A stretch of DNA of 59,818 nucleotides from Deltaproteobacteria bacterium (GTDB lineage: Bacteria; Desulfobacterota; BSN033; UBA1163): contig JAGXTA010000192.1 of NCBI GenBank assembly GCA_018333535.1, positions 1 to 59,818 of the forward strand, given 5' to 3'. The notes beneath the pieces are model-generated. The model saw only the letters and a program-made list of their open reading frames with translations. It was not told where the DNA came from and ran no database searches. The position numbers and the translations under genes were made by a program. Below, piece after piece: positions 2,474-37,641 of this stretch (its first letter is position 1; the number at the start of each line of letters is the position of its first letter).

Positions 2474-2482
2474 AGGTAAATC

Positions 2483-5918: not shown

Positions 5919-6544
5919 TCTCTTTCCTTTTTTATGATCATCACGCACAGCCCAAATCCTTCCATCCCTCTGAGATGGTTCAGATCGGTGGCCAGGATTC
6001 TCTCATTCGGATAGGTCAGGTTTTCCATAACAACGGCCCTTCTATTTTCCACCCCCCTTTCCAGGAGGTGCACAGCAATTCTCTCGGGTGGAAAATTTTG
6101 ATCGGTGAAGAGGAAGATCTTTGACGATGCGCTGACCCTCTCAGCCAGATCGTCCATCTTCCGGCCGTGGAGGCTGATAATGGTAGCATCTTCCCACCCC
6201 TCTCCGATCTTGGCGAAGGCGATCTGGACGGCGCTGATGCCGGGAATAACCACGTATTCCTCCCTTTTTAAAAAACGGGAGATGGTGCCCAGGAAGCTGC
6301 AGAGGCCCGGGTCTCCCGAAACAAGGAGGGTGATCTTTTTCCTTTCCCTCCCCTTCAACAGATAGGGGATGACCTTCTCAAAATTCCCTTCCAGAAGGAC
6401 CTCCTCCTTATGGAGATGATGAAACAGGCGAAGGGCCCGCTTTCCTCCAATCAAGCAGTCAGAGGCCTCTATCTCCCTTTGGGCAATGGGTAGCAGACAG
6501 TCCGCCGTGCCAGGACCAATGCCGATGACGTAGACTTTATTCAT
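5915..6544 (-). CDS. cbiE: Cobalt-precorrin-7 (C5) methyltransferase CbiE
   Basis: Methylates C5 late in corrin-ring construction. From the ATG at 6544 the protein begins MNKVYVIGIGPGTADCLLPIA. It has the SGDPGLCSFLG and PGISAVQIAFAKIGEGWEDA motifs of CbiE and ends after about 209 residues, so there is no fused CbiT (C15 methylase/decarboxylase) domain. The open frame continues upstream to 6598, but that stretch is part of a palindromic repeat (6541-6651), so the internal ATG, which overlaps the cbiD stop by 8 nt, is preferred. Confidence 0.92.
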   Translation of the reverse strand: MNKVYVIGIGPGTADCLLPIAQREIEASDCLIGGKRALRLFHHLHKEEVLLEGNFEKVIPYLLKGRERKKITLLVSGDPGLCSFLGTISRFLKREEYVVIPGISAVQIAFAKIGEGWEDATIISLHGRKMDDLAERVSASSKIFLFTDQNFPPERIAVHLLERGVENRRAVVMENLTYPNERILATDLNHLRGMEGFGLCVMIIKKERE

Positions 6545-7700
6545 CCCGCACCTTCCCAAAATGCCCCGCAGCTTGCTGCGGGGATGAATGGGTATCATCT
6601 AAATTCTTCCTGCGAGGTCTAATATCCCGCAGGAAGGTGCGGGATTCATCATGGCTTCCTAAAACTTCGCCCTCCAGGGATAGAAGGATGCAGCGGATCC
6701 TGAGTTTTTCTCCTACAAGATTCCTTGCGCTCAAGACCACTTCCCTGGCAATATCGTCAAAGACCTTCATCAAGCCATTTTCCCTCAATATAGCGATTGT
6801 GGCCTCCGCAGTCGTTTCCCTCAGTATCACTTCGATTATCTCCCGGCCAGCCCCGTAACGCAGGCAGTAATGAGCGATGGTCTCTATCCGGCGGTCCCCG
6901 AACCGGTTGTGGGTGTTGAACTGGCCGCTGGCCACCTTCACCAGCTTCCCGATATGTCCGATGAGAAGGACCTCCTCGATTCCCTTTTCGACACATTGCT
7001 CCAACATAAATCCCACATGATCACCTATCTTGATAATGGAATCATCGGGAAGGCCGAGGACCTTTTTGCAAAATCTCTCTCCCACATAGCCCAATACAAG
7101 GGTTGCCTTTCCGTGTCCTGTTGCCTTGAGCACATCCAATTGGAGAGACAGAGAAGCCTTGTAGGCATCGACGGATTTGGGTTCAACGATCCCTGTTGTG
7201 CCAATAATGGAGATACCTCCCCGTATGCCCAGCCGGGGATTGAAGGTCCGTTTTGCCAATTCCTGGCCATTTGGGACAGAAATGATCACTTCCAATCCCT
7301 GGCCTTCCGGCAGAAATTGGGATACCTCTTTCAGGATCATCTCCCTCGGTGTCGGGTTAATCGCATATTCCCCGACAGGAACAGCCAGGCCCGGTCTGGT
7401 CGCAATCCCCACACCCTCTCCGCCCTTGATGGTCACTCCTGGCCTGCTTGAAAACCTTACCTTCGCATAAATCTTTATGCCGTGGGTGATATCAGGGTCG
7501 TCTCCGGAATCCTTTATCACTCCGCATTTCGCATAATGATCCCCGATCTCAGGATCGATGATTGGAAGAAAGAGTGTCACCCCAGAAGGAGTTTCCACCT
7601 CCACCCCATCGACGGGCTTTCCGGTCACAAGCATCATGGCCGAAGCCTTTGCGGCTCCCTGTGCACAGCTACCAGTGGTATATCCCTTTCTTAAGTTCAT
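6537..7700 (-). CDS. cbiD: Cobalt-precorrin-5B (C1) methyltransferase CbiD
   Basis: Methylates C1 of cobalt-precorrin-5B in the anaerobic pathway. The hallmark N-terminus LRKGYTTGSCAQGAAKAS is present, followed by PKSVDAYKASLSLQLDVLKATGH and LIGHIGKLVKVASGQFNTHNRFGDRR, the conserved CbiD core. The protein is 387 residues. The last ~35 residues after GEVLGSHDE are arginine-, histidine- and serine-rich and are encoded by a palindromic repeat, so the native C-terminus was probably around residue 350. The ATG overlaps the cbiO stop as ATGA. Confidence 0.94.
   Translation of the reverse strand: MNLRKGYTTGSCAQGAAKASAMMLVTGKPVDGVEVETPSGVTLFLPIIDPEIGDHYAKCGVIKDSGDDPDITHGIKIYAKVRFSSRPGVTIKGGEGVGIATRPGLAVPVGEYAINPTPREMILKEVSQFLPEGQGLEVIISVPNGQELAKRTFNPRLGIRGGISIIGTTGIVEPKSVDAYKASLSLQLDVLKATGHGKATLVLGYVGERFCKKVLGLPDDSIIKIGDHVGFMLEQCVEKGIEEVLLIGHIGKLVKVASGQFNTHNRFGDRRIETIAHYCLRYGAGREIIEVILRETTAEATIAILRENGLMKVFDDIAREVVLSARNLVGEKLRIRCILLSLEGEVLGSHDESRTFLRDIRPRRKNLDDTHSSPQQAAGHFGKVRDE
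6541..6651. repeat. Palindromic repeat element at the cbiD/cbiE junction
   Basis: Outer arms of at least 14 bp (ATCCCGCACCTTCC and its complement) bound a ~110 bp stretch. It contains a tight hairpin of the form CCCCGCAGC-AA-GCTGCGGGG and a second nested TGCGGGAT/ATCCCGCA pair. On the minus strand it is read through by the last ~35 codons of cbiD and supplies the cbiE start codon. It looks like a REP-like or MITE-like insertion that was accommodated in frame. Confidence 0.7.
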
Positions 7701-8536
7701 CGCACTAATCTAATGATCTCTTTTCTTGCCTCCCCGATCGTGAGGGGAATCTTGTCAAAGGGGAGTTTATCCTCGTGCTTGAGTCTGTAAATCAGCTCAG
7801 CAATCTGTGGTAATCTCAGTTTAACATTTGACATGTCCTCAGGTGCAGTGAAAACATCTTCTGGAATGCCGCCTCTGACAACATGACCTTTGCTCAGTAT
7901 ATAAAGCCTGTCAAGAAAGAGCGGAACAAGGTCAACACTGTGTGTCGCCATGACAACGGTTACGCCATTCTCCCTGTTCAGCTTCATGAGGAGGTTCATC
8001 ATCTTATACTCCCCCATCGGGTCCAAGCCAGCAGTCGGCTCATCAAGTAATAAAATCTCATGCCCCATTGCTAAAAGCCCTGCGATGCATGCCCTTTTCT
8101 TCTGCCCAAAACTCAGGTTGTGAATGGACTTTCTTGCGTATCCATCCATCTCCACATCTTTAAGGGCGCTCTCTACACGCCTAGTGACCTCTTTTTCGTC
8201 AAACCCCATATTTATTGGCCCAAATGCCACATCCTCAAAAACAGTAGGTGCAAAAAGCTGATCATCGGGATTCTGAAATACAAGGCCGACTTTCTTATAA
8301 ATCTCTTTGGGAGAAAGTTTTGTAATGTCTGCTCCATCAAGCAGCGCAGCGCCTTGAAAATTTTTCAGCAGTCCATCAATCACTTTTAGAAAAGTTGTCT
8401 TACCTGAACCATTGGCACCTAATAACCCGACAAATTCTCCTTTTCTTATATCAAGCTTTAAATTAGAAAGGGCCTGATATCCATCCGGATACTTAAAACT
8501 CTCAATATTTACTGATAATCTGACTAAATCCTCCAT
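7697..8536 (-). CDS. cbiO: Cobalt ECF/ABC transporter ATP-binding protein CbiO
   Basis: ATPase of the CbiMNQO cobalt uptake system. Walker A GANGSGKTTFLK is near residue 39, the Q-loop region is VFQNPDDQLFAPTVFEDVAFGP, the ABC signature is LSFGQKKRACIAGLLAM and Walker B is LLLDEPTAGLDPMGE, followed by the switch His in ATHSVDLVP. Length 279 is normal. It overlaps cbiQ upstream and cbiD downstream. Cobalt supply is therefore co-expressed with corrin synthesis. Confidence 0.95.
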   Translation of the reverse strand: MEDLVRLSVNIESFKYPDGYQALSNLKLDIRKGEFVGLLGANGSGKTTFLKVIDGLLKNFQGAALLDGADITKLSPKEIYKKVGLVFQNPDDQLFAPTVFEDVAFGPINMGFDEKEVTRRVESALKDVEMDGYARKSIHNLSFGQKKRACIAGLLAMGHEILLLDEPTAGLDPMGEYKMMNLLMKLNRENGVTVVMATHSVDLVPLFLDRLYILSKGHVVRGGIPEDVFTAPEDMSNVKLRLPQIAELIYRLKHEDKLPFDKIPLTIGEARKEIIRLVR

Positions 8537-9276
8537 AAAAATCCCATAGTAGTTACAAATAGCGTGGAAAAGAGGAGCTCTGAGCGCTTAAAAGGCTTAT
8601 GCTTTAATATTGGCATATTACCGTCATAACCCCTTTGAGCCATTGCCACTGTAGTGTTCTGGCTCTGTTCAAATGCCTTGAGTATTAAAGAACCTGTTAA
8701 GACACCAAAAGAATTTAATCCACGCCTGACAGAAGAATAGCCGAGACGATTTTTCTGGGCATTGTAAATAACCATTGCATCCTCAAGAAGCACAAATATA
8801 TATCGATAGGCAAACATCAATATCTCTATAAATCCTTTCGGAATTCGAAACCATGAAAGTCCGGCCATGAACTCAGTAAAAGGAGTTGAAAACCCCAACA
8901 GAGCAATGATCGATACTGCCCCCAAGATTCTGGCTGCAATCATCAACCCTTCCATAAGTCCGTCAGTGTGTCCTGCCAATCTTATGCCGGCTATTTCAAT
9001 GGAAAATAGGGTATCTTTCCCTCCGGTGAGAAACTTAAGAATCAACACAACAGATGCCACAACGAGTGGCTCAGAAAACCTTAAAAAAAGGACCCTTAGA
9101 GGGATCTTCATCCTTATACACAGAATTATGCCAAGACAGAGAATGAGCAGAGGAAAGACAATTCCTCTATAACTTAAGACCATTATGAGAAGAATGAGAC
9201 TCACGATGAGCTTTATCCGTGCATCTACCCTTGAGAGGAGATTGCTTTTTTTAAAGTATTCTGAAAAAAGTTGCAT
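8524..9276 (-). CDS. cbiQ: Cobalt ECF transporter transmembrane protein CbiQ
   Basis: Transmembrane coupling component of the cobalt transporter. The protein is strongly hydrophobic, with about five to six membrane segments from residue 25 onward (LIVSLILLIMVLSYRGIVFPLL and others). Its cytoplasmic segments end in the conserved RGYDGNMPIL region that contacts CbiO. I take ATG 9276 (MQLFSEYFKKSNLLSRVDAR), preceded by GGGAAG. The open frame extends to a TTG at 9312. The nearest upstream gene is the ThiC-family gene, not cbiN, because of an apparent insertion. Confidence 0.92.
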   Translation of the reverse strand: MQLFSEYFKKSNLLSRVDARIKLIVSLILLIMVLSYRGIVFPLLILCLGIILCIRMKIPLRVLFLRFSEPLVVASVVLILKFLTGGKDTLFSIEIAGIRLAGHTDGLMEGLMIAARILGAVSIIALLGFSTPFTEFMAGLSWFRIPKGFIEILMFAYRYIFVLLEDAMVIYNAQKNRLGYSSVRRGLNSFGVLTGSLILKAFEQSQNTTVAMAQRGYDGNMPILKHKPFKRSELLFSTLFVTTMGFLWRI

Positions 9277-9349
9277 CTGATTCTTCCCAGTAATATTTGG
9301 ATGTGCAGGCAATCATTAGGCAGCCTGCACATCCATAAGAAGTTTAATT

Positions 9350-9458
9350 ATTACAAACGCAAATGCGTTTTTTACATGCAGTTCAAACCCCCTCACCCCC
9401 TACTGGGGAGAGGGAGGGGTGAGGGGCAAATATCAAACATCTTAATGCGTTTGTATTA
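9350..9458. repeat. MITE-like element, copy 1 (downstream of the ThiC-family gene)
   Basis: About 109 bp bounded by the inverted repeat TACAAACGCA / TGCGTTTGTA, with an internal C-rich/G-rich hairpin around CCCCCTACTGGGGAG. It is nearly identical, in the same orientation, to the copy at 10833-10947, so the gene at 9499-10785 is flanked by direct copies. A further short AGTTCGGAGT...AACTCCGAACT hairpin follows up to about 9500. Confidence 0.85.
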
Positions 9459-9498
9459 GTTCGGAGTTTTTCATTTGCAGTCTCTGAACTCCGAACTG

Positions 9499-10785
9499 TT
9501 AACTATTTTGAAAGAAGTCCTTTACTCTTTTGATGACGCAAAATTCTCCACACATGGTGCAGACATCCCCTTCACGAGACCTTCCCTCTTCGTGGTATCG
9601 CCTCGCCTTCACTGGATCGATTGAAAGTTCGATCTGTCTTTCCCAATCGAATTTCTTTCGGGCCTTCGACATCTCGATGTCCCTCTGAACGGCTTTCTGA
9701 TTTCCCCGAGCAATATCAGCAGCATGGCCAGCAATCCTTGTGGCAATCACCCCTTCCCTGACATCTTCGGCAGAGGGCAATTTCAGATGTTCTGAAGGTG
9801 TCACATAGCACAGAAAATCTGCTCCTGCCTTTCCTGCAATGGCGCCGCCGATGGCACAGGTGATGTGATCATATCCTGGAGAGATATCAGTCACCAATGG
9901 TCCCAATACATAGAAGGGAGCGCCTTTACACAATTTCTTTTCCAAAAGGACGTTCGCTTCAATCTGATCAAGGGGCATATGGCCAGGTCCCTCAATCATC
10001 ACTTGAACTCCCTCAGCCCATGCCCTCTCTGTCAATTCTCCGAGAATAATTGTCTCCTCCACCTGTGGTCTATCGGTCGCATCTGCCAAGCAACCAGGTC
10101 TCAATCCATCTCCCAGGCTCAGCGTTACATCATACTTCTTGGCAATCTCTAAGAGTCGGTCAAAATGTTCGTAGAATGGATTTTCTTGATCATTATAAAT
10201 CATCCATTCGATGAGGAAGGAACCACCTCTGCTGACCACTCCCATGAGCCGACGATCTCGCCTTAGTCGCTCCACAGAATTTCGAGTTACTCCGCAATGA
10301 ACTGTCATGAAGTCAACGCTCTCTACTGCCTGACGCTCAATGACCTCGAAAATATCTTCCACCGTCATCTTAGCCAAAGCCTTCCTACGCCTTACGGCCT
10401 CGATAGCTGCCTCATAAATAGGAACGGTTCCTACAGGGATGGGAGAATGGCAAATGATCTCCTTACGGATGGCATCGATATCTCCACCCGTGCTCAAATC
10501 CATCACCGTATCCGTCCCAGCCTGGATCGAAACTTCAAGTTTTTTCAATTCCTCTTCTAAATCGATGTGGTCAGAGGAAGTCCCGATATTTGTATTCACC
10601 TTGATCCGCAGCCCCTCTCCAATCCCTACGGGTTTAACCCCTTGATGGTTTCGATTGACAGGGATGATGATTCGACCAGAGGCAATCTTTTCTCGAAGCC
10701 ATCCGGAGGAGACTCCTTCTTCTCTTGCGACTACTTCCATCTCTTTCGTAATAATTCCCTTCTGAGCCTCAATCTTTTGAGTCAT
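9499..10785 (-). CDS. ThiC-family radical SAM enzyme: phosphomethylpyrimidine synthase or 5-hydroxybenzimidazole synthase (BzaF)
   Basis: ThiC-family enzymes rearrange aminoimidazole ribotide; ThiC makes the thiamine pyrimidine, while the paralogue BzaF makes 5-hydroxybenzimidazole, a B12 lower-ligand precursor. The 428-residue protein has the core GTDTVMDLSTGGDIDAIRKE, SPIPVGTVPIYEA, MIEGPGHMPLDQIEAN and a C-terminal CTMCGEFC cluster motif. It is the short form common in anaerobes. It lies inside the cbiMNQO cluster, and I see no TPP riboswitch upstream. Both points make BzaF plausible, but the motifs visible by eye do not separate the two. Two MITE copies flank it. Confidence 0.85.
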   Translation of the reverse strand: MTQKIEAQKGIITKEMEVVAREEGVSSGWLREKIASGRIIIPVNRNHQGVKPVGIGEGLRIKVNTNIGTSSDHIDLEEELKKLEVSIQAGTDTVMDLSTGGDIDAIRKEIICHSPIPVGTVPIYEAAIEAVRRRKALAKMTVEDIFEVIERQAVESVDFMTVHCGVTRNSVERLRRDRRLMGVVSRGGSFLIEWMIYNDQENPFYEHFDRLLEIAKKYDVTLSLGDGLRPGCLADATDRPQVEETIILGELTERAWAEGVQVMIEGPGHMPLDQIEANVLLEKKLCKGAPFYVLGPLVTDISPGYDHITCAIGGAIAGKAGADFLCYVTPSEHLKLPSAEDVREGVIATRIAGHAADIARGNQKAVQRDIEMSKARKKFDWERQIELSIDPVKARRYHEEGRSREGDVCTMCGEFCVIKRVKDFFQNS

Positions 10786-10832
10786 ATTATCCCCTTCTTC
10801 CCTACAAATTCAAAATTATAGTTCGGAGTATT

Positions 10833-10947
10833 TAATACAAACGCAAATGCGTTTTTTACGTGCAGTTCAAACCCCCTCCCTCTCCCCCTACTGGGGAGAG
10901 GGAGGGGGTGAGGGGCAAATGTCAAACATCTTAATGCGTTTGTATTA
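10833..10947. repeat. MITE-like element, copy 2 (upstream of the ThiC-family gene)
   Basis: A 115 bp element with perfect 13 bp terminal inverted repeats TAATACAAACGCA / TGCGTTTGTATTA and an internal hairpin built on C-rich and G-rich arms around CCCCCTACTGGGGAG. It matches the copy at 9350-9458 over nearly its whole length. Its right terminus provides the TAA stop of the cbiN-like gene (10945-10947), so that gene's last codons were set by the insertion. Confidence 0.88.
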
Positions 10948-11322
10948 GCTTATTATTTTTTGTTTCTCTCCATTAATCTTTAATGGTCCTTCGGTCAAAA
11001 GTCTCCTCCAATAATATCCAGCCACAAATCCTCCTACTGCACCTGCAACCAAAAACACAAAGAGGAGGAGGTCTCCCTGATCTGTGTTAATAAATGGCTC
11101 TCTCGCCTCCCTGCCATGCTCTTTTGCATACTTTTCGACTACCGACTCATCCACCCCAGGCCATTTCTCGCTGCCGAAGGCGAATGAGAGAAGACTGGGG
11201 AGGAATACTATCGCAACAATGATACAGAAGTACAATTTTGTGTGTTTAGTTTTAAATCCTCTAAACTCCGAACTCCCTGCCTGCCGAAGCCTCGGCGCAG
11301 GCAGGCGAACTCCGAACTTCAT
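10945..11322 (-). CDS. CbiN-like small membrane component of the cobalt transporter
   Basis: A 125-residue protein with two membrane segments (LYFCIIVAIVFLPSLLSFAFG and DLLLFVFLVAGAVGGFVAGYYW) on either side of an extracytoplasmic KWPGVDESVVEKYAKEHGREAREP stretch. This is the CbiN layout. It lies directly after cbiM with an ATGA overlap. The first ~24 residues before the first membrane segment are encoded by a GC-rich palindrome and look foreign. Family membership is inferred from size, topology and position. Confidence 0.7.
   Translation of the reverse strand: MKFGVRLPAPRLRQAGSSEFRGFKTKHTKLYFCIIVAIVFLPSLLSFAFGSEKWPGVDESVVEKYAKEHGREAREPFINTDQGDLLLFVFLVAGAVGGFVAGYYWRRLLTEGPLKINGEKQKIIS
11276..11305. 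repeat. GC-rich palindrome inside the 5' end of the cbiN-like gene
   Basis: Arms CCTGCCTGC and GCAGGCAGG with a GAAGC/CTCGGC core form a hairpin. It is flanked on both sides by copies of the short motif AACTCCGAAC. A related palindrome with GCAGGC arms lies in the btuB leader (about 21580-21640). This is a dispersed short repeat here read as coding sequence. Confidence 0.6.
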
Positions 11323-12077
11323 ACTGTCACCTCCTCTGGTTTTAATACTTTCATTTTTACGAGCAAATCAGGCCTCTTTTTATAAAGGAGGACAACCATA
11401 CCTGCGGTCATTGCCCCTTCAAGTATTCCCAGTGGCACTTGTGTTGGAATAAAGGCAACCAGAATTTTCCAGAACAGTGGCAAAAATGGAGAGTCTCCCC
11501 TTATGCCTGATGCAAGCACAACAGATGTTGTAAAATAGGTCGCCCAGTCAGCCAATAACCCTGCCATGAATCCAGAAACGGCTATATTGATTTTCATTGA
11601 GCGTAATGTCTTAAAGGTTAAAAACCCTGCAAAGGAGCCCATGACCCCCATCGATAAGATATCCGCTCCCCATGTGCTCAGACCTCCATGGGCGAGAAAG
11701 AGGGCCTGAATTAGTAGAGCGATTGCTGCAACCAGTATGCTAATAGCAGGACCAACGAGTATCCCTGATATTCCTGTTCCGCAGGGATGAGAGCATGTGC
11801 CCGCCGTGGGTACGGGGATGGGCATGCATGAGATTATAAAGACTACCGCTGCCATAAGCCCCACAAGTGGTTTAAATGATGGGTCGAGACTCGAAAGTTT
11901 CTTTAATCTATACAATCCATAGCCTACAAATGGTATTGCTAACACAAACCAGAGTGCTGCCCAGTTAAATGGTAAAATCCCTTCAGAGATGTGCATCGCA
12001 TGGACGTTATTGGCAAAAAATAAACAGCAAAGCATTATGAGAGCTGAAAAAAGGTTTCTTATTTTTGAATATTTCAT
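11319..12077 (-). CDS. cbiM: Cobalt transporter substrate-capture protein CbiM
   Basis: S-component of the cobalt ECF transporter. A signal sequence (about 26 residues, ending NNVHA) precedes MHISEGILP, whose N-terminal Met-His after cleavage forms part of the metal site in the CbiM/NikM family. Several membrane helices follow, with the conserved GTCSHPCGTGISGILVGP and ALFLAHGGLSTWGADILSMGVMG segments. I start at ATG 12077 because a strong AGGAGGAG site precedes it; a further ATG at 12095 lies upstream of that site. Upstream is cbiX, with about 20 nt between the genes. Confidence 0.95.
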   Translation of the reverse strand: MKYSKIRNLFSALIMLCCLFFANNVHAMHISEGILPFNWAALWFVLAIPFVGYGLYRLKKLSSLDPSFKPLVGLMAAVVFIISCMPIPVPTAGTCSHPCGTGISGILVGPAISILVAAIALLIQALFLAHGGLSTWGADILSMGVMGSFAGFLTFKTLRSMKINIAVSGFMAGLLADWATYFTTSVVLASGIRGDSPFLPLFWKILVAFIPTQVPLGILEGAMTAGMVVLLYKKRPDLLVKMKVLKPEEVTV

Positions 12078-12100
12078 TTCTCCTCCTGAAGCCATGGATG

Positions 12101-12631
12101 TTATCTTCGATATCTGACCGCCTCATCCGGAGGCATTTGGACAAATTCGTATTGTCCTGGCGGAATGGGATATTCGTCTCGTCCCGGTAGGACAATATCC
12201 CTCACGTCGCAGAGGTCTTTTGATTCCTCAATGCGTCGTTCTACAAGCTCTACCAGCGCTTCATCGAATCCGAAACTTTTTCCCAGAATCAATTTCACAT
12301 GTGGAAATTTTTTTGCTTCCTTCTGCATCATCTCAGGGATATCCAGGAGGAGATGCAGCCCTTCGTGGAGGAAGTAAGGAATGACCAAGACCCTATTGGC
12401 CCCCTGGTTTACGCATTTCTCGAAGACCTCATGGAAATGGGGTCCCAGTCTCGAAACGAAGCATATCTCCACCCGAAGGTATCCATATTTTTGTTTTAAC
12501 CGCTTGGCCACTTCTTCCATATCCTTCCCGGCTCCTGGCACACGACTTCCGTGTCCCATGAGAATAATGGCTTCATCGGGTTTACGATCAATCTCCGGTA
12601 TGGAATGACTTGTCATGATGCTCCTCTTCAT
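12101..12631 (-). CDS. cbiX: Sirohydrochlorin cobaltochelatase CbiX
   Basis: Inserts Co2+ into sirohydrochlorin. From the ATG at 12631, which overlaps the upstream radical SAM stop as ATGA, the protein has 176 residues. It has the chelatase histidines in ILMGHGSRVPGAGKDMEE and VIPYFLHEGLHLLLDIPEMM. It is a single-domain protein a little longer than archaeal CbiX-S, with a C-terminal tail rich in Pro, Asp and Arg (DEYPIPPGQYEF) that I do not recognise. It lies between the peptide-maturation pair and the cobalt importer. Confidence 0.92.
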   Translation of the reverse strand: MKRSIMTSHSIPEIDRKPDEAIILMGHGSRVPGAGKDMEEVAKRLKQKYGYLRVEICFVSRLGPHFHEVFEKCVNQGANRVLVIPYFLHEGLHLLLDIPEMMQKEAKKFPHVKLILGKSFGFDEALVELVERRIEESKDLCDVRDIVLPGRDEYPIPPGQYEFVQMPPDEAVRYRR

Positions 12632-14061
12632 AGGGAAGTTATCTCCATCACTGTTGATGTGCCAGCATCCCAGTTGTCCCACAAAAATGCCTCTTCCTTG
12701 CCGTCAGCGATTTGTCTGAAGGCATACCGGATTTGCTCCTCATAGAATTCGCAAAACGAACCTCTACTATTCATTCTGCCATTTATGGTGTAAGCCTCAG
12801 CAGGACATGGGGACCCGCAGAAGTGCCGTATTGCGCACCTGGAGCAGGGCTCAATGTCTTCAACCTTTCGGCCCGTTACTTTCTTAAACCCAGGGCTGCT
12901 AAGAGCCTGCTCAATCTTGCCGTTGAAGAGATTGCCTCCGCAAAACTCCGGAAGCCCTATGAACTCGCTGCATGGGAAGAGATCTCCCGTGGCCGAGATG
13001 GCAAAAAAACATCGCCCTCCGCCGCAGGGAGAGATATCGCACATGAGCCGACGGGCAGTTGGCCCCACAATCCCAACAAGCACATTAGCAAAATTAGCCA
13101 CTACCAGCTTGCGGCCGGTCTTTTCATACAACTCATAGGCGCGATCAAGGGCCATGAGATAGTTTCTGGCCAATTCACGGTCATGCGGCTTGATCTCGCG
13201 GGCTCCCTGAAGCGTGCAGCGGACAGGATTGAGCATGCAAATCGGAACCTCCATGTGATGGAAGAAGTCTACGATTGCAGGGAGTGACCGCATATTTTTG
13301 CGCGTGACGGTACAGATCACATTATAACCAGGGTATCCTTTTAACCGTTCCAGAGTGTCAATCACCTTCTTAAAAATACCATCGCCCGCCCAGGTTTTCC
13401 TCGTGCGATCTGCGATTTTCCCGATATGGCCATCGAGGGAGAGTCCGATGCCGACTCCGTGAGAAGCAAAGAATTCGATCGCCTCAGCATCGATCAAAAT
13501 GCCATTGGTTTGGACACCAAAGCGAAAATCATTCTTATACCTCTCTATCCCAGCGAAAACCGCATCCCGGTTGAGCATCGGTTCTGCTCCGTGAAAGACG
13601 ATCTGGGGAAAGGCTCCTTTGGGCAAGGTTTTCCCGAAAAAGGTCTTCAAAATCTCCAATCCTTCGATGAGTTTCCGCTCCGACATCTGCACGCCGTTCC
13701 TTCGCATCGTCTCCGGAATATAACAATAGTCACAATTAAGGTTGCACCGGTCGGTAGGGTTGAAGTACACGGCCGAAGGCTTCAGCTCAAACCGAAGGGT
13801 CTTCATCTCAGAGGATAAATCTGCCTGTTTCGACTGGTACTGCCTAAGAAGAGAACTGTTGGTGAGCGCATCCGCCAGTCTCTTTTTTTTCACAAGAGAC
13901 CAGAAGGCTGTATCAGGTTCGATCAGAGCCATATAGTTGGGATGCTCAATGTCGATCAGTTGAATGGTAGGGCCGTTTCCTGAGTTGAGGTAATGTCCGA
14001 GCGATGAAGCTATGGTATCTTTCCCCAAATCTTCCATACTATGTTTCTCCATGAGTTCCAT
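12628..14061 (-). CDS. cbpB: Radical SAM/SPASM peptide-modifying enzyme, CbpB type
   Basis: About 477 residues. An N-terminal leader-binding-like region (~95 residues) is followed by the radical SAM motif CNLNCDYC (Cys106, 110, 113) in NPTDRCNLNCDYCYIPE. The C-terminal SPASM region has many cysteines (MCDISPCGGGRC, DLFPCSE, CSRCAIRHFCGSPCPAE, FCEFYEEQ) for auxiliary Fe-S clusters. This architecture is that of RiPP maturases. I recall a TIGRFAM/NCBIfam pair, CbpB with precursor CbpA, named for its position beside cobalt/cobamide genes; the product is unknown. The start ATG 14061 lies 62 nt after the cbpA stop; ATG 14052 or 14037 are alternatives. Confidence 0.85.
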   Translation of the reverse strand: MELMEKHSMEDLGKDTIASSLGHYLNSGNGPTIQLIDIEHPNYMALIEPDTAFWSLVKKKRLADALTNSSLLRQYQSKQADLSSEMKTLRFELKPSAVYFNPTDRCNLNCDYCYIPETMRRNGVQMSERKLIEGLEILKTFFGKTLPKGAFPQIVFHGAEPMLNRDAVFAGIERYKNDFRFGVQTNGILIDAEAIEFFASHGVGIGLSLDGHIGKIADRTRKTWAGDGIFKKVIDTLERLKGYPGYNVICTVTRKNMRSLPAIVDFFHHMEVPICMLNPVRCTLQGAREIKPHDRELARNYLMALDRAYELYEKTGRKLVVANFANVLVGIVGPTARRLMCDISPCGGGRCFFAISATGDLFPCSEFIGLPEFCGGNLFNGKIEQALSSPGFKKVTGRKVEDIEPCSRCAIRHFCGSPCPAEAYTINGRMNSRGSFCEFYEEQIRYAFRQIADGKEEAFLWDNWDAGTSTVMEITSL

Positions 14062-14123
14062 GGTTAACGGTCCCCGGGGCACCCCGCCCACGTTTGGCCG
14101 GGTGCAAAGGGGGAACCCTGGTC

Positions 14124-14231
14124 CTATTTGGTTTTCTTGTTTAACAGAATGTAGTGAGCCAGGCCGGTGCCATTCGCCTTGCACGCTTTCCGATAAGCAA
14201 TCACATCCTTTCCTTTCTTCCTATTCTTCAT
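14124..14231 (-). CDS. cbpA: CbpA-type RiPP precursor peptide (35 aa)
   Basis: A short gene with an almost perfect ribosome site (AAAGGAGGTGAAGAAG before ATG). The peptide is 35 residues: a lysine-rich start MKNRKKGKD, then VIAYRKACKANGTG and LAHYILLNKKTK. It has one cysteine (Cys17), a GTG turn and an aromatic/hydrophobic tail with His and Tyr, which are candidate targets of the radical SAM enzyme encoded just downstream. Size, basic composition, strong ribosome site and pairing with cbpB fit the CbpA precursor family as I remember it. The modified residues are unknown. Confidence 0.82.
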   Translation of the reverse strand: MKNRKKGKDVIAYRKACKANGTGLAHYILLNKKTK

Positions 14232-14249
14232 CTTCTTCACCTCCTTTCG

Positions 14250-14960
14250 CTAAGGATTCCCTTTCCGTCCCTTTAAAACAGCGACCGAACAGAGGGCATG
14301 GATCACGCTGACGGCCAGGGGACTCCCTCCCCGCCGCCCATTCACGGCGATAAAAGGAACACCTAATGACATCAGTTCCTCTTTACTTTCAATGACATGA
14401 ACGAAACCGACAGGCATGGCGATCACCAGGGCCGGCCTGATATTTTCTTCCAGAAGGAGACGATTAAGTTCGAGAAGGGCGATCGGTGAGTTTCCAAAAA
14501 CGGCCAGGCCTCCGTCCAGGATAGGTTTTGCCTTTTGAATGGCGAAGAGGGATCGCGGGAACCCCATCTGGTGCGCCTTCTCAACCACCTCCTCATCATT
14601 CACATGACAAACGATGCTGGAAGCGTTGTAACCTGCATGGACTGATCGAAGCCTCGGAAGGGAAAGTCCGGACTGGATCATTCTGGAGTCGACATAGATT
14701 GTACTTCCACTGCGTAATGCCTCCGTTCCAATGGCAATGGCATCTGGCGAGAACCTGACAACATCGATAAGGCTGAAATCTCCGGTGGTGTGGATCATAC
14801 GCCGGACCACCTGCCATTCATCCGGGCCAAAGGGGTGGGAAGACACCTCCTTCTCAATCATCTCCATGGATCGGGCCTCAATCTCCTCTCCGCTCAAAGG
14901 GGAGGCATAGAATCGATAAATAAGGGGAGTATGTTTAGGGAACCGATTCCTTAGATTCAT
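14250..14960 (-). CDS. cbiC: Cobalt-precorrin-8 methylmutase CbiC
   Basis: Moves the C11 methyl to C12, giving cobyrinic acid. The 236-residue protein has MIHTTGDFSLIDVVRFSP (the conserved His in RRMIHTTGD) and VIAMPVGFVHVIESKEEL near the C-terminus, plus IAVNGRRGGSPLAVSVIHAL; all are CbiC/CobH signatures. The ATG overlaps the cbiA stop as ATGA. The peptide gene cbpA starts 18 nt after its stop, so the RiPP pair is embedded in the operon. Confidence 0.95.
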   Translation of the reverse strand: MNLRNRFPKHTPLIYRFYASPLSGEEIEARSMEMIEKEVSSHPFGPDEWQVVRRMIHTTGDFSLIDVVRFSPDAIAIGTEALRSGSTIYVDSRMIQSGLSLPRLRSVHAGYNASSIVCHVNDEEVVEKAHQMGFPRSLFAIQKAKPILDGGLAVFGNSPIALLELNRLLLEENIRPALVIAMPVGFVHVIESKEELMSLGVPFIAVNGRRGGSPLAVSVIHALCSVAVLKGRKGNP

Positions 14961-16345
14961 GACCTTGCCTCACATTGGGTGATGAAGTTTTCCATGGCCT
15001 CAGGCTGAGAGGCCCAGTGGAGGTGCACATAGCTCGCCGAAATCTTGCCTCGCTGAAAGCCTTCGAAGCTTATCGCTTTCGAACGGCTACGTTTGACCCT
15101 ATAAACCGACTTCCAGAGTTCATCCTTCGGGTCCGCGGTCAATTCGGAGTAGTGGAATTCATGGCCTCTTAACACGGCTCCGCACGCTCCCCAGAGGGAG
15201 TTTGCTGCCAGGGTAATTTCCACGTATCCGAGGGATTTTAAGCGGTCGAGCATTCTGGACCAGACCGGCAGGAGGCCAACCATAGGATACCGTTTTTCAC
15301 CGGTGATCTCAATGCCCCGGGTCAGATACATCAACCCGCCGCACTCCGCATAGATGGGCAGGCCCCTTGAGGCAAATTGTCGAATAGCTTCTCTCATCTC
15401 CCTGTTATCCGACAAGCCTTCGGCATGTTCTTCTGGATATCCTCCTCCCAGGTAGAGGCCGTCTAAACCTTCCGGCAGCCCTTTGTCTTCAAGGGGGGAA
15501 AACCGGATCAGATCGCATCCCCGCAATGTCAGTTCATCCAGGTTATCGGAGTAATAAAAGTGAAAAGCTCTGTCGTAAGCCACACCGATAGAAACCCGTT
15601 TGCGGACGGGATTTCTTTCCGAAAAAGACCCGGGCAGGTTGAGAGGAGGTGCATCTCTCGCCAGTTGAAGGAAGGCGTCCAGGGATGCATGCTTTTCTAG
15701 GACGTCCGCCAATTGATGAAGAATCTTCGGCGAGAGATTTTGAGGATCTGCGGTCACCAGCCCCAGATGGCGACTGGGGAGGGTGGGGAAGGCCCCTCTT
15801 GGAATGGCACCCAATACGGGCGGAAGGGAAGCGCTTCCCAGGGATTGGGTGAGCCATTCTTTGTGGTGATCCGAACCGCTATGATTGGCTACGATGCCAG
15901 CAATTCTTAAATCCCGATCGAATTCGACACAACCTTTTACAATGGCGGCAAGACTACGGGCCATGCCATGGACATTCACGACCAATAATACCGGAGCATC
16001 CAGCCAGCGGGCCATCTCCGCTGTGCTTCCCTCAGAGGTTGCCGGGTCGGCTCCGTCAAAAAGCCCCATCACCCCTTCGATCACAGCCATATCCACATCC
16101 TTTGTGGTTCGATGGAAAAGCTCCAGGACATATTCCCTCCTGGTCATCCAGCCATCGAGGTTATAGCAGGGCCTTCCCGAGGCGACAGTCAAATAAGAGG
16201 GGTCAAGAAAATCCGGTCCGACTTTGAAGGTTTGAACCTGAAGCCCTCTCCGTTTGAGGGAGGCGACCAGAGCCAGGGCCAGAGAGGTCTTTCCCGTTCC
16301 GCTCTGGGTTCCTGCAATAACGATCCTCGGCAACGATCGACTCAA
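14957..16345 (-). CDS. cbiA: Cobyrinate a,c-diamide synthase CbiA
   Basis: ATP- and glutamine-dependent amidation of the a and c side chains of cobyrinate. The N-terminal P-loop domain has AGTQSGTGKTSLALAL; the C-terminal glutaminase domain has the nucleophile in YAECGGLMYLTRGI and the later His in RGHEFHYSEL. Length 462 is normal. The start is a TTG that overlaps the cobO stop as TTGA, a less usual start chosen because no ATG is available near the conserved N-terminus. Confidence 0.94.
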   Translation of the reverse strand: MSRSLPRIVIAGTQSGTGKTSLALALVASLKRRGLQVQTFKVGPDFLDPSYLTVASGRPCYNLDGWMTRREYVLELFHRTTKDVDMAVIEGVMGLFDGADPATSEGSTAEMARWLDAPVLLVVNVHGMARSLAAIVKGCVEFDRDLRIAGIVANHSGSDHHKEWLTQSLGSASLPPVLGAIPRGAFPTLPSRHLGLVTADPQNLSPKILHQLADVLEKHASLDAFLQLARDAPPLNLPGSFSERNPVRKRVSIGVAYDRAFHFYYSDNLDELTLRGCDLIRFSPLEDKGLPEGLDGLYLGGGYPEEHAEGLSDNREMREAIRQFASRGLPIYAECGGLMYLTRGIEITGEKRYPMVGLLPVWSRMLDRLKSLGYVEITLAANSLWGACGAVLRGHEFHYSELTADPKDELWKSVYRVKRSRSKAISFEGFQRGKISASYVHLHWASQPEAMENFITQCEARS

Positions 16346-16869
16346 TATTCAACTCCTTTCTGGGCAGGCCAGCCCTCTTGCAACCCATGCTTGAGGCAAC
16401 ACATCTTTGTGACAGTATCGGCCATTGAAATCAGTCGATCCGTGGCCCCTCTGCCAGTCAATACGATGCAGGAATTCTCATTCCCCTGATTGATGAATTC
16501 AAGCACCTGATCCTCATCGAGTAATCTCTTGTCAACGGCTGTACATATTTCGTCGAGGATGATCAGGTCATATCTCTTTGACTGGAGGGCTTTTAGAGCT
16601 GTCTGTAAAGCATCCTGTGCGGACTTGCGGTGTTCAGAGAAGGCCGGGTCTTTGGCCGGGGGTGTAAATCCACGGCCCATCTGGATAATTTCAACTCCCG
16701 GGAGATGTTGAAGAGCGATTAATTCGCCGGTCGATGGATTCGCTTTTATGAATTGGAGTATTAGTGTTCGCAAACCATGGCCGGTTGCACGAAGGGCCAT
16801 GCCGAGAGCTGCGGTTGTTTTCCCCTTCCCGTCTCCCGTAAAAATTAAGACACGACTTTTTTCTCTCAT
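16342..16869 (-). CDS. cobO: Corrinoid adenosyltransferase CobO/BtuR
   Basis: Transfers the adenosyl group of ATP to Co(I) corrinoids. The P-loop GDGKGKTTAALGMALRATGHG lies close to the N-terminus, followed by MGRGFTPPAKD and LIILDEICTAVDKRLL, all CobO/BtuR family motifs. The start is unsettled: ATG 16869 has AAAGGA close upstream, ATG 16884 is possible, and the frame continues to a TTG at 16893. It lies after the cobD-cobQ fusion with a short gap. Confidence 0.93.
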   Translation of the reverse strand: MREKSRVLIFTGDGKGKTTAALGMALRATGHGLRTLILQFIKANPSTGELIALQHLPGVEIIQMGRGFTPPAKDPAFSEHRKSAQDALQTALKALQSKRYDLIILDEICTAVDKRLLDEDQVLEFINQGNENSCIVLTGRGATDRLISMADTVTKMCCLKHGLQEGWPAQKGVEY

Positions 16870-16921
16870 GGTCCTTTCTCTCATCGAATCCAATGGGCAA
16901 TCATCCAGTCCCCACCTATGC

Positions 16922-19495
16922 TCACCTCAGTCCCATTAATCTGTAGATTTCTTTGATCTTCAAACTCCTCCGGACCACCTCTGCCAGTCTTTCTAAAGCG
17001 AGTTCCAGATCGTATACTGCGCAGACCTTCCGAATAGCGGGAAGATTGTGTCGAATCCGCAAACGGTCAATAAACCATCGTCGAAACTCATCCGTATCGA
17101 AGATTCCGTGGAGGTAAGTCCCCCAGATTTGGTGGTCTTTTATTCCTCCACCAATAACCTCTCCATCTTCCCGGAGAACGAGAGGAATCAGAGACCCTCC
17201 ATCTGTCTGGCCATGATGGATTTCATATCCTCGGATCTTTAAGCCTGAAGTTAGATGAGTCCCTTCCGCCCGGACAAGCGTCTTTTGACGATCCATCATG
17301 GTGGTGATAGGTAACAGACCAAGTCCTTGAATAGCCGGTTTGTGGGATTCAATCCCATGAGGATCGTCGATCCTTTGACCCAACATCTGGAAGCCGCCAC
17401 AAATGCCCACCACCTCTGTCCTGCCCTCCACCGCCAGACCAATAATTTTTTCCTCCAGTCCGTTTCGACGCAAATACTCCAGATCACCTATGACGTTTTT
17501 GCTCCCCGGGAGGATGAGGGTGTCCGGATGATCGAGGTCCTTCGGCGATCGCACAATTCGAAGATGAACATCCGGTTCGATTCTGAAGGGGTCGAAATCT
17601 GTAAAATTCGATATGTGCGGAAGATCAATGACCGCAATCTCGATGCTGTTTGCCTGGGGAGGAGCATCCAACGCGCCGCTCTTGAACTCGACGGAATCTT
17701 CCTCCGGTAACCCCGGATCATGGAGATATGGGACTAATCCATAGAAGGGAAGACCTGTATGGTTTTGTGTGTATTGGATGGCCGGGTCGAGGAGGGTTTC
17801 GTCTCCCCGAAAACGGTTAATGATAAAACCGGCTAACCGTTTCCGTTCCCAATCGGTCAATACCTCCCAGGTGCCTATGAAAGAGGCAAAAACTCCCCCC
17901 CGGTCGATATCACCGATCAAGAGAACCGGAGCTCCTGCATAGTCTGCCATCTTCATGTTCACAATATCGTGGGACTTCAAGTTGACCTCTGCGGGACTGC
18001 CAGCCCCCTCGAGGACGATCACATCGAATTCCCTGGCGAGAGAATCGTAAGCTTCCTTTACGGTCTCGAAGGCCTTTGTCTTGTATTCTATATACTTCTC
18101 GACCCCCATGTTTCCGAGCGGCTTTCCCAAAAGGATGACCTGTGAACCTGTATCGCTGCTGGGTTTGAGAAGGATTGGATTCATGCGCACGTCAGGATCG
18201 AGACGACAAGCCTGGGCTTGAACGACCTGAGCCCGGCCCATTTCTCCCCCCTCCCGGGTTACAAAAGAATTCAAGGACATGTTCTGGGACTTAAAAGGGG
18301 CTACCCTGTATCCGTCCTGCAGAAGAATGCGGCACATGGCTGCCGTCAATATGCTCTTGCCGGCATTGGAGCTTGTTCCTTGGAACATGATCGCCTGTCT
18401 CTTTTTACGAGCCGGGGCAGATTTAAAGGGAATCCTCAACGCTTTCTTTAGAAGATCGATGAGTTTTAAGTTCTCATCCCTTATTCTGACCGCAACACGA
18501 AAAAACCTCTTATCCAGACCGTCGAAATTAGCACATACCCGGATGGCGATGCCAGAAGAAATCATCTGCTTTGCCAGAGCCGGAGCGTCCATATCTTTGC
18601 GATCAATACGGACCAACAAGAAATTGGCCTTTCCGGGGTAGACCGTTAGCCCCGAGAGAAATTTCAGTTCATTAAAAAGGAATTCTCTTTCTTCTCGGAT
18701 GAAGGTCCTGGTCCGTGCGGCATAGGCATCGTCCTGGATTGCGTTCTCTCCTACCGCCTGAGCAAGGGCATTCACTGACCAGGGAGGTGTTATTTTCCTT
18801 ATTTTCTGGATCACGTCATGTTCGGCAATGGCGAAACCCAATCTCAATCCCGGGATGGCATAGAGCTTGGTAAAAGAACGAAGGATGATGACATTGGGGG
18901 GCCTTTTCTGGATCAAACTTTCCATTCCTTCGACGAAATCCAGGAAGGCTTCGTCGATGACAAAGATGGTGGAAAGATGCTTTAAGGCCAGGGTTCGCAG
19001 GGCGAAAGGATCGACCAGCAGACCAGTTGGGTTGTTGGGCTGCCCGATAAAAACCAATTGGTCACCGCAGATTTTCGAATCAAGAAGAGATAGATTGAGT
19101 TGAAAAGCTTCTTCCTCTTTGAGAAAGATCTTTTCCACAGGTTTTCCTGCGAGGGCTACAGCCTTCCCATAATCGGCGTAGGAAGGAACAGGGATGAGGG
19201 CCCGAGCGATGGGCAATGACCGGGGCAGTAAGTAGATGATCTCGCTGGACCCATTTCCCACCAGAACCTCTTCTTCTCTCGACCCATAGCATGTGGCAAT
19301 GGACGCTTTGAGTAAGGAACAATCTGGATCAGGATAGTGGACGATGGAACTCAACTGAGAACTGATCAAGGAGCGAAGCCATTCCGGAGGGCCTAAGGGG
19401 TTAATGCTCGCTGAGAAGTCCAGAAGGTCCTTTGCAGGTCGACCCGAAGCCTTGGCCAACTTTCTTATATTTCCACCATGCTCATCATCTGTCAT
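16922..19495 (-). CDS. Fusion of L-threonine-phosphate decarboxylase (CobD) and cobyric acid synthase (CobQ)
   Basis: 857 residues in two clear parts. Residues 1 to about 355 are a PLP aminotransferase-fold CobD (FSASINPLGPPEW; pyridoxal lysine in RSFTKLYAIPGLRLGFA), which makes (R)-1-amino-2-propanol phosphate. After a basic linker (APARKKRQ), residues ~366-857 are CobQ: MFQGTSSNAGKSILTAA P-loop domain, PFKSQNMSLNSFVT, and a glutaminase domain with the nucleophile in GICGGFQMLGQ and the later His in GYEIHHGQTDG. CobQ makes adenosylcobyric acid. Both products are the two substrates of CbiB, not seen here. No frame break is visible between the parts. Confidence 0.92.
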   Translation of the reverse strand: MTDDEHGGNIRKLAKASGRPAKDLLDFSASINPLGPPEWLRSLISSQLSSIVHYPDPDCSLLKASIATCYGSREEEVLVGNGSSEIIYLLPRSLPIARALIPVPSYADYGKAVALAGKPVEKIFLKEEEAFQLNLSLLDSKICGDQLVFIGQPNNPTGLLVDPFALRTLALKHLSTIFVIDEAFLDFVEGMESLIQKRPPNVIILRSFTKLYAIPGLRLGFAIAEHDVIQKIRKITPPWSVNALAQAVGENAIQDDAYAARTRTFIREEREFLFNELKFLSGLTVYPGKANFLLVRIDRKDMDAPALAKQMISSGIAIRVCANFDGLDKRFFRVAVRIRDENLKLIDLLKKALRIPFKSAPARKKRQAIMFQGTSSNAGKSILTAAMCRILLQDGYRVAPFKSQNMSLNSFVTREGGEMGRAQVVQAQACRLDPDVRMNPILLKPSSDTGSQVILLGKPLGNMGVEKYIEYKTKAFETVKEAYDSLAREFDVIVLEGAGSPAEVNLKSHDIVNMKMADYAGAPVLLIGDIDRGGVFASFIGTWEVLTDWERKRLAGFIINRFRGDETLLDPAIQYTQNHTGLPFYGLVPYLHDPGLPEEDSVEFKSGALDAPPQANSIEIAVIDLPHISNFTDFDPFRIEPDVHLRIVRSPKDLDHPDTLILPGSKNVIGDLEYLRRNGLEEKIIGLAVEGRTEVVGICGGFQMLGQRIDDPHGIESHKPAIQGLGLLPITTMMDRQKTLVRAEGTHLTSGLKIRGYEIHHGQTDGGSLIPLVLREDGEVIGGGIKDHQIWGTYLHGIFDTDEFRRWFIDRLRIRHNLPAIRKVCAVYDLELALERLAEVVRRSLKIKEIYRLMGLR

Positions 19496-19599
19496 TGCCT
19501 ATAACCTTTTCTCACAGTTTGAGTGCCCCCAAAAGATCACAAAAAGGGATCCATTTCTTTAATTCTAAGGCTATGTCTTTCCCTCTATCGAAAACCAAT

Positions 19600-21531
19600 T
19601 TAAAAACTCAGTTTGATTCCCCCAAAGAAGGAAATCCCCGGAGTTCCATAACCTTTTACTTCTTCGTACTCTTTGTCGAAAAGGTTTTCGACACGACCAA
19701 AGATCTGGAAATTTTTGGTCAGCTCATAGGATGTGGCCAGATTCACCAGGGTGTATCCGTCAAGCTTGACTCTCCGGGTGAAAGTGGATGGGTCCATATC
19801 ATCCCTTTTCCCCACATAGGTTACTCCTAGGTTTATGTTTCCTTTTTTGAGAAAAGAGTAGTCCAGATCGAGGCCGAATTTATTTTTCGGTCTCCTGAGA
19901 AGATCCCGATCCGTCCTTTTGTCCTCTGTGTCGGTATAAGTGTAGTTGAGTCGGAGGGTTAACTCCTCAATAGGTTTTGCTGCAACAAAAAGCTCAGCGC
20001 CTTCGGTTTTGGCCTTGGCAATATTGATATATCCCTTTGTGAAATCAAACTGGATGAGGTCTTCAATATCGTTTTTGAAGTAAGTTGCACCAAGAACCAA
20101 TCTGTTTTTGAAGAAGTTCTGTTCAATTCCAAAATCCCATCCTTTGCTCTTCTCAGGTTTGAGATTCTTATTGCCAATTGGACCCCACAAGGTGGCAGGG
20201 GCAAATAATTGATAGAGAGAGGGAGCCTTAAAGCCGGTGCCAAAGGTTCCCTTGAGTTTGGTATCCGTCTTTCTAACCAGATAAGCAGGAGCAATCCGGT
20301 AAGTGGTCTCTGTGCCGAAGCGGCTATGGTCATCAATGCGGATCCCAACAGTTCCAAAGAATTGGTCCCACAGGTTAAACTGGTCCTGGAGGTAATAGCC
20401 TTTCATATTTGCCTTCTTCTCCGGAAAGAGGCTCTGGTCAGGTCCCCATATGCTTTCCGAATAATATTTCGACTTTCCTTCTTCCCTCTCATATTCAAAA
20501 CCAAAGATGAGCTTATTGGTTTTGTGAAGTTCGAACTGATGCTGCCAGTCCAATTTTAATAATTGACCCTTGTAGTTTCCCCGTTCGAAGTCGAAGGGGT
20601 GCTGAGGATCTTTTTTGTTTTTATAATTTCTCTCATGGTCATTCACAGCGAGGCCCAATCGTTGATGCCAGAACTTATCGAAAAGAGATAGTTCTGCCTG
20701 GGTCTTTAAAAAGAACTGTTTTGAATGCTGAACATAGTTCGGGTCGTCCGCAATCCCGACTCCAAATACCCACGTATCAAGTTCAGATTTTGCGTTAATC
20801 GAACGGAGCATAAAATCAACGTTTAGATTCTCAAGAGGAGTGAAACCCAGCCTTGCCGAGAGAGAGGTGCTTTCATAACCATCCCTCTCATAATTCCCAT
20901 TCTTCTTACTTGCAGCAGAAATTCCATCCGTATCGAAGCGAGATACTCCAAGTGAGTAATTAACCCATTTATTTCCTCCACTGACTCCTGCTGTCTCTCT
21001 GAAAGTTGTATACGATCCCCCTTCAGCAGATAAAAAGAACTTTGGCTTCCCTTCACCTTTTTTGGTAATGATGTGGATCACACCACCAATGGCATCAGAG
21101 CCATACAAGGTGCTTTGTGGACCACGAAGGACTTCGATGCGCTCAATATTGTCGACGGTTAAATGGGCAAAATCATAAGAGCGTCCCGGGGAGATAGGGT
21201 CATTCACTTCTACCCCATCAATCATTACCAATGTATGTTCAGAATTGGCGCCTCTGATGAAGATGGATGCACTCATTCCCGCCCCCCCGGTTCGCACCAC
21301 ATCCAGGCCTGGGATGCCTCGGAGGACTTCTAAGACCGAAGCCTTCTGTTTTTTTATGATCTCTTCAGATGGAATGCTCGTGATTGAACTGGCAATCTCT
21401 TCAATCGGGGTTTCAACCCGGGTGGCAGTGACGACGACTTTTTCAAGGGTCACCTCCTTCTCCTGTGCCATAAGAGAAAAGGGAATTAAGATGAAAAGAA
21501 AAGAAGTGATGAAAAGAATGAAACGTTTCAT
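19600..21531 (-). CDS. btuB: TonB-dependent outer-membrane cobalamin receptor BtuB
   Basis: 643 residues. A signal peptide (~22 residues, ending MAQ) is followed by a TonB-box-like EKVVVTATRVETP. The plug domain has VLRGIPGLDVVRTGG, MIDGVEVNDPISPG and RIEVLRGPQSTLYGSDAIGGVIHI, and the long beta barrel ends in a terminal aromatic (GGIKLSF). It imports corrinoids with TonB energy. It is the first gene after the cobalamin riboswitch and the leading gene of the cobamide operon; the next gene starts about 105 nt downstream. Confidence 0.93.
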   Translation of the reverse strand: MKRFILFITSFLFILIPFSLMAQEKEVTLEKVVVTATRVETPIEEIASSITSIPSEEIIKKQKASVLEVLRGIPGLDVVRTGGAGMSASIFIRGANSEHTLVMIDGVEVNDPISPGRSYDFAHLTVDNIERIEVLRGPQSTLYGSDAIGGVIHIITKKGEGKPKFFLSAEGGSYTTFRETAGVSGGNKWVNYSLGVSRFDTDGISAASKKNGNYERDGYESTSLSARLGFTPLENLNVDFMLRSINAKSELDTWVFGVGIADDPNYVQHSKQFFLKTQAELSLFDKFWHQRLGLAVNDHERNYKNKKDPQHPFDFERGNYKGQLLKLDWQHQFELHKTNKLIFGFEYEREEGKSKYYSESIWGPDQSLFPEKKANMKGYYLQDQFNLWDQFFGTVGIRIDDHSRFGTETTYRIAPAYLVRKTDTKLKGTFGTGFKAPSLYQLFAPATLWGPIGNKNLKPEKSKGWDFGIEQNFFKNRLVLGATYFKNDIEDLIQFDFTKGYINIAKAKTEGAELFVAAKPIEELTLRLNYTYTDTEDKRTDRDLLRRPKNKFGLDLDYSFLKKGNINLGVTYVGKRDDMDPSTFTRRVKLDGYTLVNLATSYELTKNFQIFGRVENLFDKEYEEVKGYGTPGISFFGGIKLSF

Positions 21532-37449: not shown

Positions 37450-37455
37450 TTTAAG

Positions 37456-37641
37456 TAGGTTACAGGAGAGACCCCAAGGGGGGCGCCGAAGGGGCAAGTT
37501 CCGCTGAAGGCGGGATGAAACTCTCAGGCAAAAGGACTGTAACTTAAGAGATTCCTGGAAAGACCGAGGTGACAAGCCTCGGCACCGAAGGGGACAAATT
37601 CCGCCTATGGGCGGAATAATCTCTCAGGTCAAAAGACAGGA
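37456..37641 (+). promoter_or_regulatory. Tandem glycine riboswitch
   Basis: Two glycine aptamers in a row. Aptamer 1 (about 37457-37543) has GGAGAGACCCC, GGCGCCGAAGGGGCAA and AAACTCTCAGGCAAAAGGAC, closed by TTACAG/CTGTAA. Aptamer 2 (about 37552-37641) has GGAAAGACC, GGCACCGAAGGGGACAA and AATCTCTCAGGTCAAAAGACAGG, closed by CCTG/CAGG. A terminator starts at the end of aptamer 2, so glycine is expected to relieve termination (an ON switch, as known for this class). Confidence 0.95.

Follow-up and report, generated by a model that had tools for sequence, protein, structure and literature searches.

CbpA/CbpB: a probable B12-controlled modified-peptide pair concentrated in makers of the corrin ring

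Introduction

The closest described systems to the CbpA/CbpB pair are found on the enzyme side. CteB, the SCIFF maturase (PDB 5WGG and 5WHY), is a thioether-forming enzyme and the nearest solved structure to CbpB, both by sequence (4e-23) and by fold (Z 34.8). The two have the radical SAM core and the SPASM clusters in common, but their identity is only about 20%, CbpB scores 112.8 bits against the SCIFF maturase model (TIGR03974) where 425 are needed, and CbpA has a single cysteine compared with six in SCIFF. Cys341 of CbpB is a candidate fourth ligand of the AuxI cluster; the CteB row of the alignment has no matching cysteine, and CbpB may accordingly work by another mechanism than CteB. The PapB maturases of ranthipeptides (NF047865) are the second-best NCBIfam match of CbpB (135 bits, cut-off 340), but CbpA lacks the Cys/acid ladder of ranthipeptides. 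The anaerobic sulfatase-maturating enzyme anSMEcpe has eight SPASM cysteines, as CbpB does, and a similar fold (Z about 33; ChlB follows with Z 32). Against the anSME family model, however, CbpB reaches only 124 bits (cut-off 349), and its putative substrate is the product of a neighboring short gene, not a sulfatase. CobW-type cobalt chaperones and the CbiX/CbiK chelatases would share the place in the pathway that is proposed below, but these proteins are unrelated to CbpA.

The pair itself falls into the NCBIfam families TIGR04163 (CbpB) and TIGR04164 (CbpA), and the copy described here is alike in both members, each far above the curated cut-off. We know of no experimental product for either family, and a literature search, with most subscription papers beyond its reach, found no study of the pair. 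What was known, in short, is a named but undescribed family; what is new here are the stand-alone pairs, their own riboswitch, the link with ring-making genomes, the comparison of an 18-kb block with a congener and the motif of the peptide.

The pair and its operon

The DNA analyzed (the window) is a stretch of 59,818 nucleotides from a deltaproteobacterium, contig JAGXTA010000192.1. On its minus strand, cbpA (14231–14124) is a 35-codon gene that encodes MKNRKKGKDVIAYRKACKANGTGLAHYILLNKKTK, preceded by an AGGAGG ribosome-binding site (14240–14245) 8 nt 5' of its ATG. The gap from the stop of cbiC (14250) to cbpA is 18 nt. The first-pass annotation, made from the sequence alone, had proposed just such a short gene with a strong ribosome site behind cbiC and had assigned the two proteins to CbpA and CbpB; the coordinates, the ribosome-binding site and the profile searches bear this out, with 53.1 bits for CbpA against TIGR04164 (cut-off 35) and 703.5 bits for CbpB against TIGR04163 (cut-off 375). 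The next family for CbpB is PapB, which answers the concern that the enzyme might lie closer to an unrelated radical SAM family. In close pairs of relatives the cbpA core has a pN/pS of about 0.08, indicating purifying selection. As in RiPP systems, the gene for a short precursor adjoins that for its putative maturase.

The second gene, cbpB (12628–14061, minus strand), encodes a predicted radical SAM/SPASM peptide-modifying enzyme. The start could be at 14061, 14052 or 14037, and conservation begins near residue 18. Both the Radical_SAM and the SPASM families of Pfam are matched, and an AlphaFold2 model (mean pLDDT 86) gives the fold neighbors named above; with regard to a possible RRE-like domain for leader recognition, the whole-model alignment pairs CbpB from residue 31 onwards with CteB from CteB residue 1. 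Numbered from the start at 14061, the CX3CX2C motif consists of Cys106, Cys110 and Cys113. These three, already singled out in the first-pass annotation together with a Cys-rich C-terminus, are invariant in 45 relatives, as are the eight C-terminal SPASM cysteines. This pattern would suit three [4Fe-4S] clusters, one SAM-binding and two auxiliary, as expected for the family. No natural fusion of CbpA and CbpB was seen, and the two genes are in different frames in the window; the length of the long CbpB reading frames at loci L041, L051 and L092 appears to come from 5' ends that run on. The CbpB tree (in which the very long branch of the L102 reading frame was disregarded) intermixes phyla, which is in keeping with horizontal spread, a reading limited by genome bins and paralogues.

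The neighboring genes of the window, all on the minus strand, deal with cobalt and the corrin ring. Downstream, the ATG (12631) of a cbiX-like sirohydrochlorin chelatase gene (12101–12631; matches to the CfbA and PRK00923 chelatase models, below their cut-offs) overlaps the stop of cbpB as ATGA, and cbiM, the S component of a cobalt ECF transporter, follows at 11319–12095 (TIGR00123, 198.9 bits, cut-off 184.15). Upstream lie cbiC/cobH, for precorrin-8X methylmutase (14250–14960; PF02570, 222.6 bits), and cobB/cbiA, for cobyrinic acid a,c-diamide synthase (14957–16345; NF002204, 504.9 bits). Beyond the window, the host genome carries another cobB/cfbB homologue (G000:C121:2872-4218).

Genomic context in relatives

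Is a place inside a cobamide operon a general property of the pair? Relatives were gathered as some 70 loci from many phyla, with CbpB 55–69% identical to that of the window, and 20 more from the host phylum; together with the window these make up about 85 distinct loci and span about 16 bacterial phyla. A matching short reading frame lies directly 5' of cbpB at nearly all of the related loci that have upstream DNA, as the precursor assignment of the first-pass annotation had implied. Cobalamin genes, on the other hand, were found near the pair at just 16 of the roughly 85 loci (window and L029 counted; up to 8 kb on each side, with contig ends limiting the count). Only in the window is the pair flanked on either side by cob genes within a long cobalamin operon. 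At the other loci it is mostly free-standing, and most pairs are not beside cobalt genes. The earlier description of the pair as embedded in a cobamide operon, which is also what the family name implies, therefore holds for the window but is ruled out as a general rule.

No third gene recurs beside the pair across the loci, and none for a protease or peptidase, an exporter, a receptor or a partner regulator recurs at the related loci. The commonest cluster of short neighbors (C1, 14 loci) proved to be a spurious antisense reading frame over the riboswitch. At three loci (L016, L025 and L029) cobT lies directly 3' of cbpB. At L037, a TPP riboswitch (7697–7792) just 3' of cbpB precedes a ThiF-like gene.

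Control by cobalamin riboswitches

The first-pass annotation had also placed the pair under a cobalamin riboswitch. The only one in the window (21968–21732, minus strand; RF00174, 50.5 bits) is at the head of the operon, before btuB and 7.5 kb upstream of cbpA, so that this copy would be under B12 control only if a single long transcript runs from the riboswitch through cbpA. In relatives the arrangement is direct. A scan for the B12 box first pointed to riboswitches before the stand-alone pairs, and an Rfam search then confirmed RF00174 at 52 of the 62 testable loci, co-oriented with cbpA and 65–334 nt (median about 118) before it, with scores of 33–117 bits. As background, about 708 kb of scanned DNA held four other matches. 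Among the ten exceptions, the pair in L008 and L045 is downstream of co-oriented cob genes, the riboswitch of L071 is divergent and that of L075 lies 1.9 kb upstream; in L010, L035, L036, L059 and L069 none was found even with lax search settings. With riboswitches directly before cbpA in relatives, the case for B12 control is stronger than the first-pass annotation could know, and the riboswitch is a more general trait of cbpAB than the cobalamin-operon context.

The riboswitch regulons of twelve genomes are mostly small (2–5 riboswitches, up to 12 in G214). Where annotated, the other members are CbiM, CbiK, CbiX-CbiC, a corrin methylase, CobT, an adenosyltransferase and TonB receptors; for G340 and G302, cbpAB and a cob operon make up the whole regulon. 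A cobalamin riboswitch ahead of a very large secreted PQQ-like/SLH-type protein at L113 (genome G325) is unusual for a B12 regulon.

The conserved core of CbpA

From 78 aligned cores, and a divergent subclade read by hand, the core takes the form [IV]-[AS]-x-R-[KRY]-x-C-x(5-7)-G-L-[SAT]-H-[YF]-[ILV], or, in short, R-x2-C-x(5-7)-G-L-[SAT]-H-[YF]. The Arg, the Gly-Leu and the His are invariant across both sets; the Tyr is nearly so, being replaced by Phe in L062. Only in L053 is the Cys replaced, by Ser (an apparent Arg at this column in L106 is an alignment slip, since the L106 sequence does carry the Cys). This L053 core (7843–7971, Elusimicrobia; RKTS...GTGLTHY) has a riboswitch in front. In the window the corresponding residues are Cys17, G21-x-G23 and L24-A25-H26-Y27. 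The first-pass annotation had picked out Cys17, a GTG turn and a LAHYILL tail as the likely modified or ligand residues; Cys17, the G-x-G and the LxHY do belong to the conserved core, but the Ala of the tail is peculiar to the window, the position being Ser in 75 of the 78 cores and Thr in two.

The spacing from the Cys to the Gly-Leu varies by two residues. The long-loop precursors go with a single clade of CbpB (100/98 support), which fits a joint evolution of peptide and enzyme. Two tandem cores occur in each of three precursors from gammaproteobacteria (L049, 1124–1354; L060, 2078–2464; L063, 7504–7989), and the shortest precursor, in L095, has just 29 residues (35.5 bits), which implies that a leader is little needed or not at all. 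Ready substrates for locating the modified residue are offered by the motif, by the precursors with two cores or with 29 residues and by the Ser variant of L053.

Distribution of the pair and the 18-kb block

Which bacteria carry the pair? In the host phylum, 21 of 297 genomes have cbpA. CbiC is present in 20 of these 21, as against 118 of the 276 genomes lacking cbpA (Fisher p = 2e-6, uncorrected for relatedness), and the single exception is a genome 79% complete and in 530 contigs. Among 50 cbpAB-carrying genomes of other phyla, CbiC is found in 37 and CbiC or CobQ in 44; the six with neither are likely due to incomplete genomes. The converse does not hold, since 118 of the 138 ring-making genomes of the host phylum lack the pair. 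This makes cbpAB an accessory to corrin synthesis, and CbpA cannot be an obligatory chaperone. CbiM and CbiK showed no clear difference between ring-makers with and without cbpA.

A comparison with a congener (G192; locus L146, contig C199) separates the pair from the salvage genes. DNA alignment to the congener's contig, a true homologue of the window's, reveals that a block of 18 kb (1630–19599, minus strand) is missing from the congener at the same site, where about 55 nt separate the counterparts of window positions 1629 and 19600. The block contains cbiM, cbiQ and cbiO for cobalt uptake, genes for corrin-ring synthesis, cbiX, thiC and cbpAB, without cobT. The congener keeps the riboswitch, btuB, cbiR, cobU, cobS and cobT, with cobT among the salvage genes. 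CbiC was missing from every relative sampled, the five congeners and four members of the family, which makes gain of the block in this species a simpler reading than loss. Whichever it was, the genes that cbpAB moved with are those of cobalt uptake and ring synthesis and not the salvage genes. This is a single comparison, by which cobalt and ring assembly are inseparable. A mis-binned window contig was rejected as an explanation, GlmS being 77–86% identical to its counterparts in congeners.

Next to cobU and cobS, both species carry CbiR, a cobamide-remodelling phosphodiesterase (window 868–1680, L146 5742–6554). BtuB is 97% identical between the two (window 19600–21531, L146 6565–8496), compared with 86% for GlmS and 61–71% for CbiR and CobU; to judge from these identities, btuB was possibly exchanged recently.

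What does the pair do?

That cbpAB is a B12-controlled modified-peptide pair is very probable, and that it acts in the branch that makes cobalt available or builds the corrin is probable. On balance, the best overall reading is of a RiPP-like pair, repressed by B12, that serves the supply of cobalt or the assembly of the corrin and in which CbpB installs a radical modification. CbpA and CbpB would be precursor and maturase in a regulon turned on at cobamide shortage. Going by its family, CbpB would modify CbpA by way of a radical, generated with S-adenosylmethionine and three [4Fe-4S] clusters. The likely outcome would be a cross-link, a thioether or another, that joins the R-x2-C segment to the G-L-x-H-Y segment and closes a loop of variable length. 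Modification of Cys17 itself, suggested by the thioethers that CteB makes, is rather to be expected than not, although the Ser of L053 leaves no room for a Cys thioether in that core. With less assurance, the mature peptide may remain within the cell, given the lack of a recurrent protease or exporter gene at the loci, and may aid an early cobalt-dependent stage, such as the hand-over of Co2+ from uptake to chelatase, or buffering. The first-pass annotation had suggested a product that binds cobalt or a corrinoid, or that acts as a cobalt chaperone to CbiX or CbiM; a role specifically as a cobalt chaperone or buffer is plausible but less likely than not. More tentative still is a radical-modified metallo-peptide that would be an intracellular cobalt ligand or chaperone in about 16 phyla, made only at cobamide shortage; with the same reserve, CbpA would be the first RiPP dedicated to the B12 or cobalt economy.

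Could the product instead be a small molecule? CbpA would then be a scaffold, like PqqA or the mycofactocin precursor, from which CbpB and general proteases release a cofactor derived from the conserved His-Tyr, such as a redox carrier or a precursor of the cobamide lower ligand. The very short L095 precursor, the invariant His and near-invariant Tyr, and the three loci with cobT behind cbpB would suit such a scheme. Against it, the Tyr is Phe in L062, the conserved core of about 20 residues exceeds what a dipeptide source needs, no peptidase recurs beside the pair, and cobT is absent from the window block and keeps company with the salvage genes in the congener. We consider it improbable. A secreted scavenger, binding corrinoids or cobalt outside the cell and aiding uptake, is a shade more doubtful. 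Such a peptide would be repressed by B12, as btuB is, its cationic ends would fit, and the two-core precursors of Sedimenticola and Neptunomonas could raise the dose of product; but the association with ring synthesis is strong, no exporter or receptor recurs, and the congener has every salvage gene yet no cbpAB.

The first-pass annotation had also raised a signal of B12 state. A regulatory peptide, either sensing the cell's cobalt or cobamide state or reporting it to CbiX, CbiM or a regulator, would be small, strongly conserved and B12-controlled, all of which CbpA is, but no partner regulator recurs at the loci, and we regard this as highly doubtful. Least probable is a stand-in that takes over from a B12-dependent function in the absence of B12, like the B12-independent isozymes under B12 riboswitches: riboswitch control by itself cannot separate supply from replacement genes, but a replacement would be expected in non-makers no less often than in makers, whereas cbpA is concentrated in ring-makers and the window copy sits within a cobalt/corrin block.

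That the pair is mostly free-standing behind a riboswitch of its own, and moves with the cobalt/corrin block, turns a label of operon association into a testable and well-supported claim, that a B12-repressed modified peptide assists B12 makers. If the peptide does handle cobalt, cells would have a further, new means of supplying a cofactor pathway with metal, and radical SAM peptide chemistry would gain a new role.

Other features of the window

The cobalamin operon contains a ThiC-type gene (9499–10785) between cbiN and cbiQ, which scores 669.7 bits as ThiC and 615.7 bits, below the cut-off of 700, against BzaB, the paralogue for the B12 lower ligand. It is flanked by two near-identical repeats of about 130 nt (9345–9476 and 10829–10965; 85–97% over their parts), as if thiC were a later insertion. 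Tandem glycine riboswitch aptamers lie at 37453–37641.
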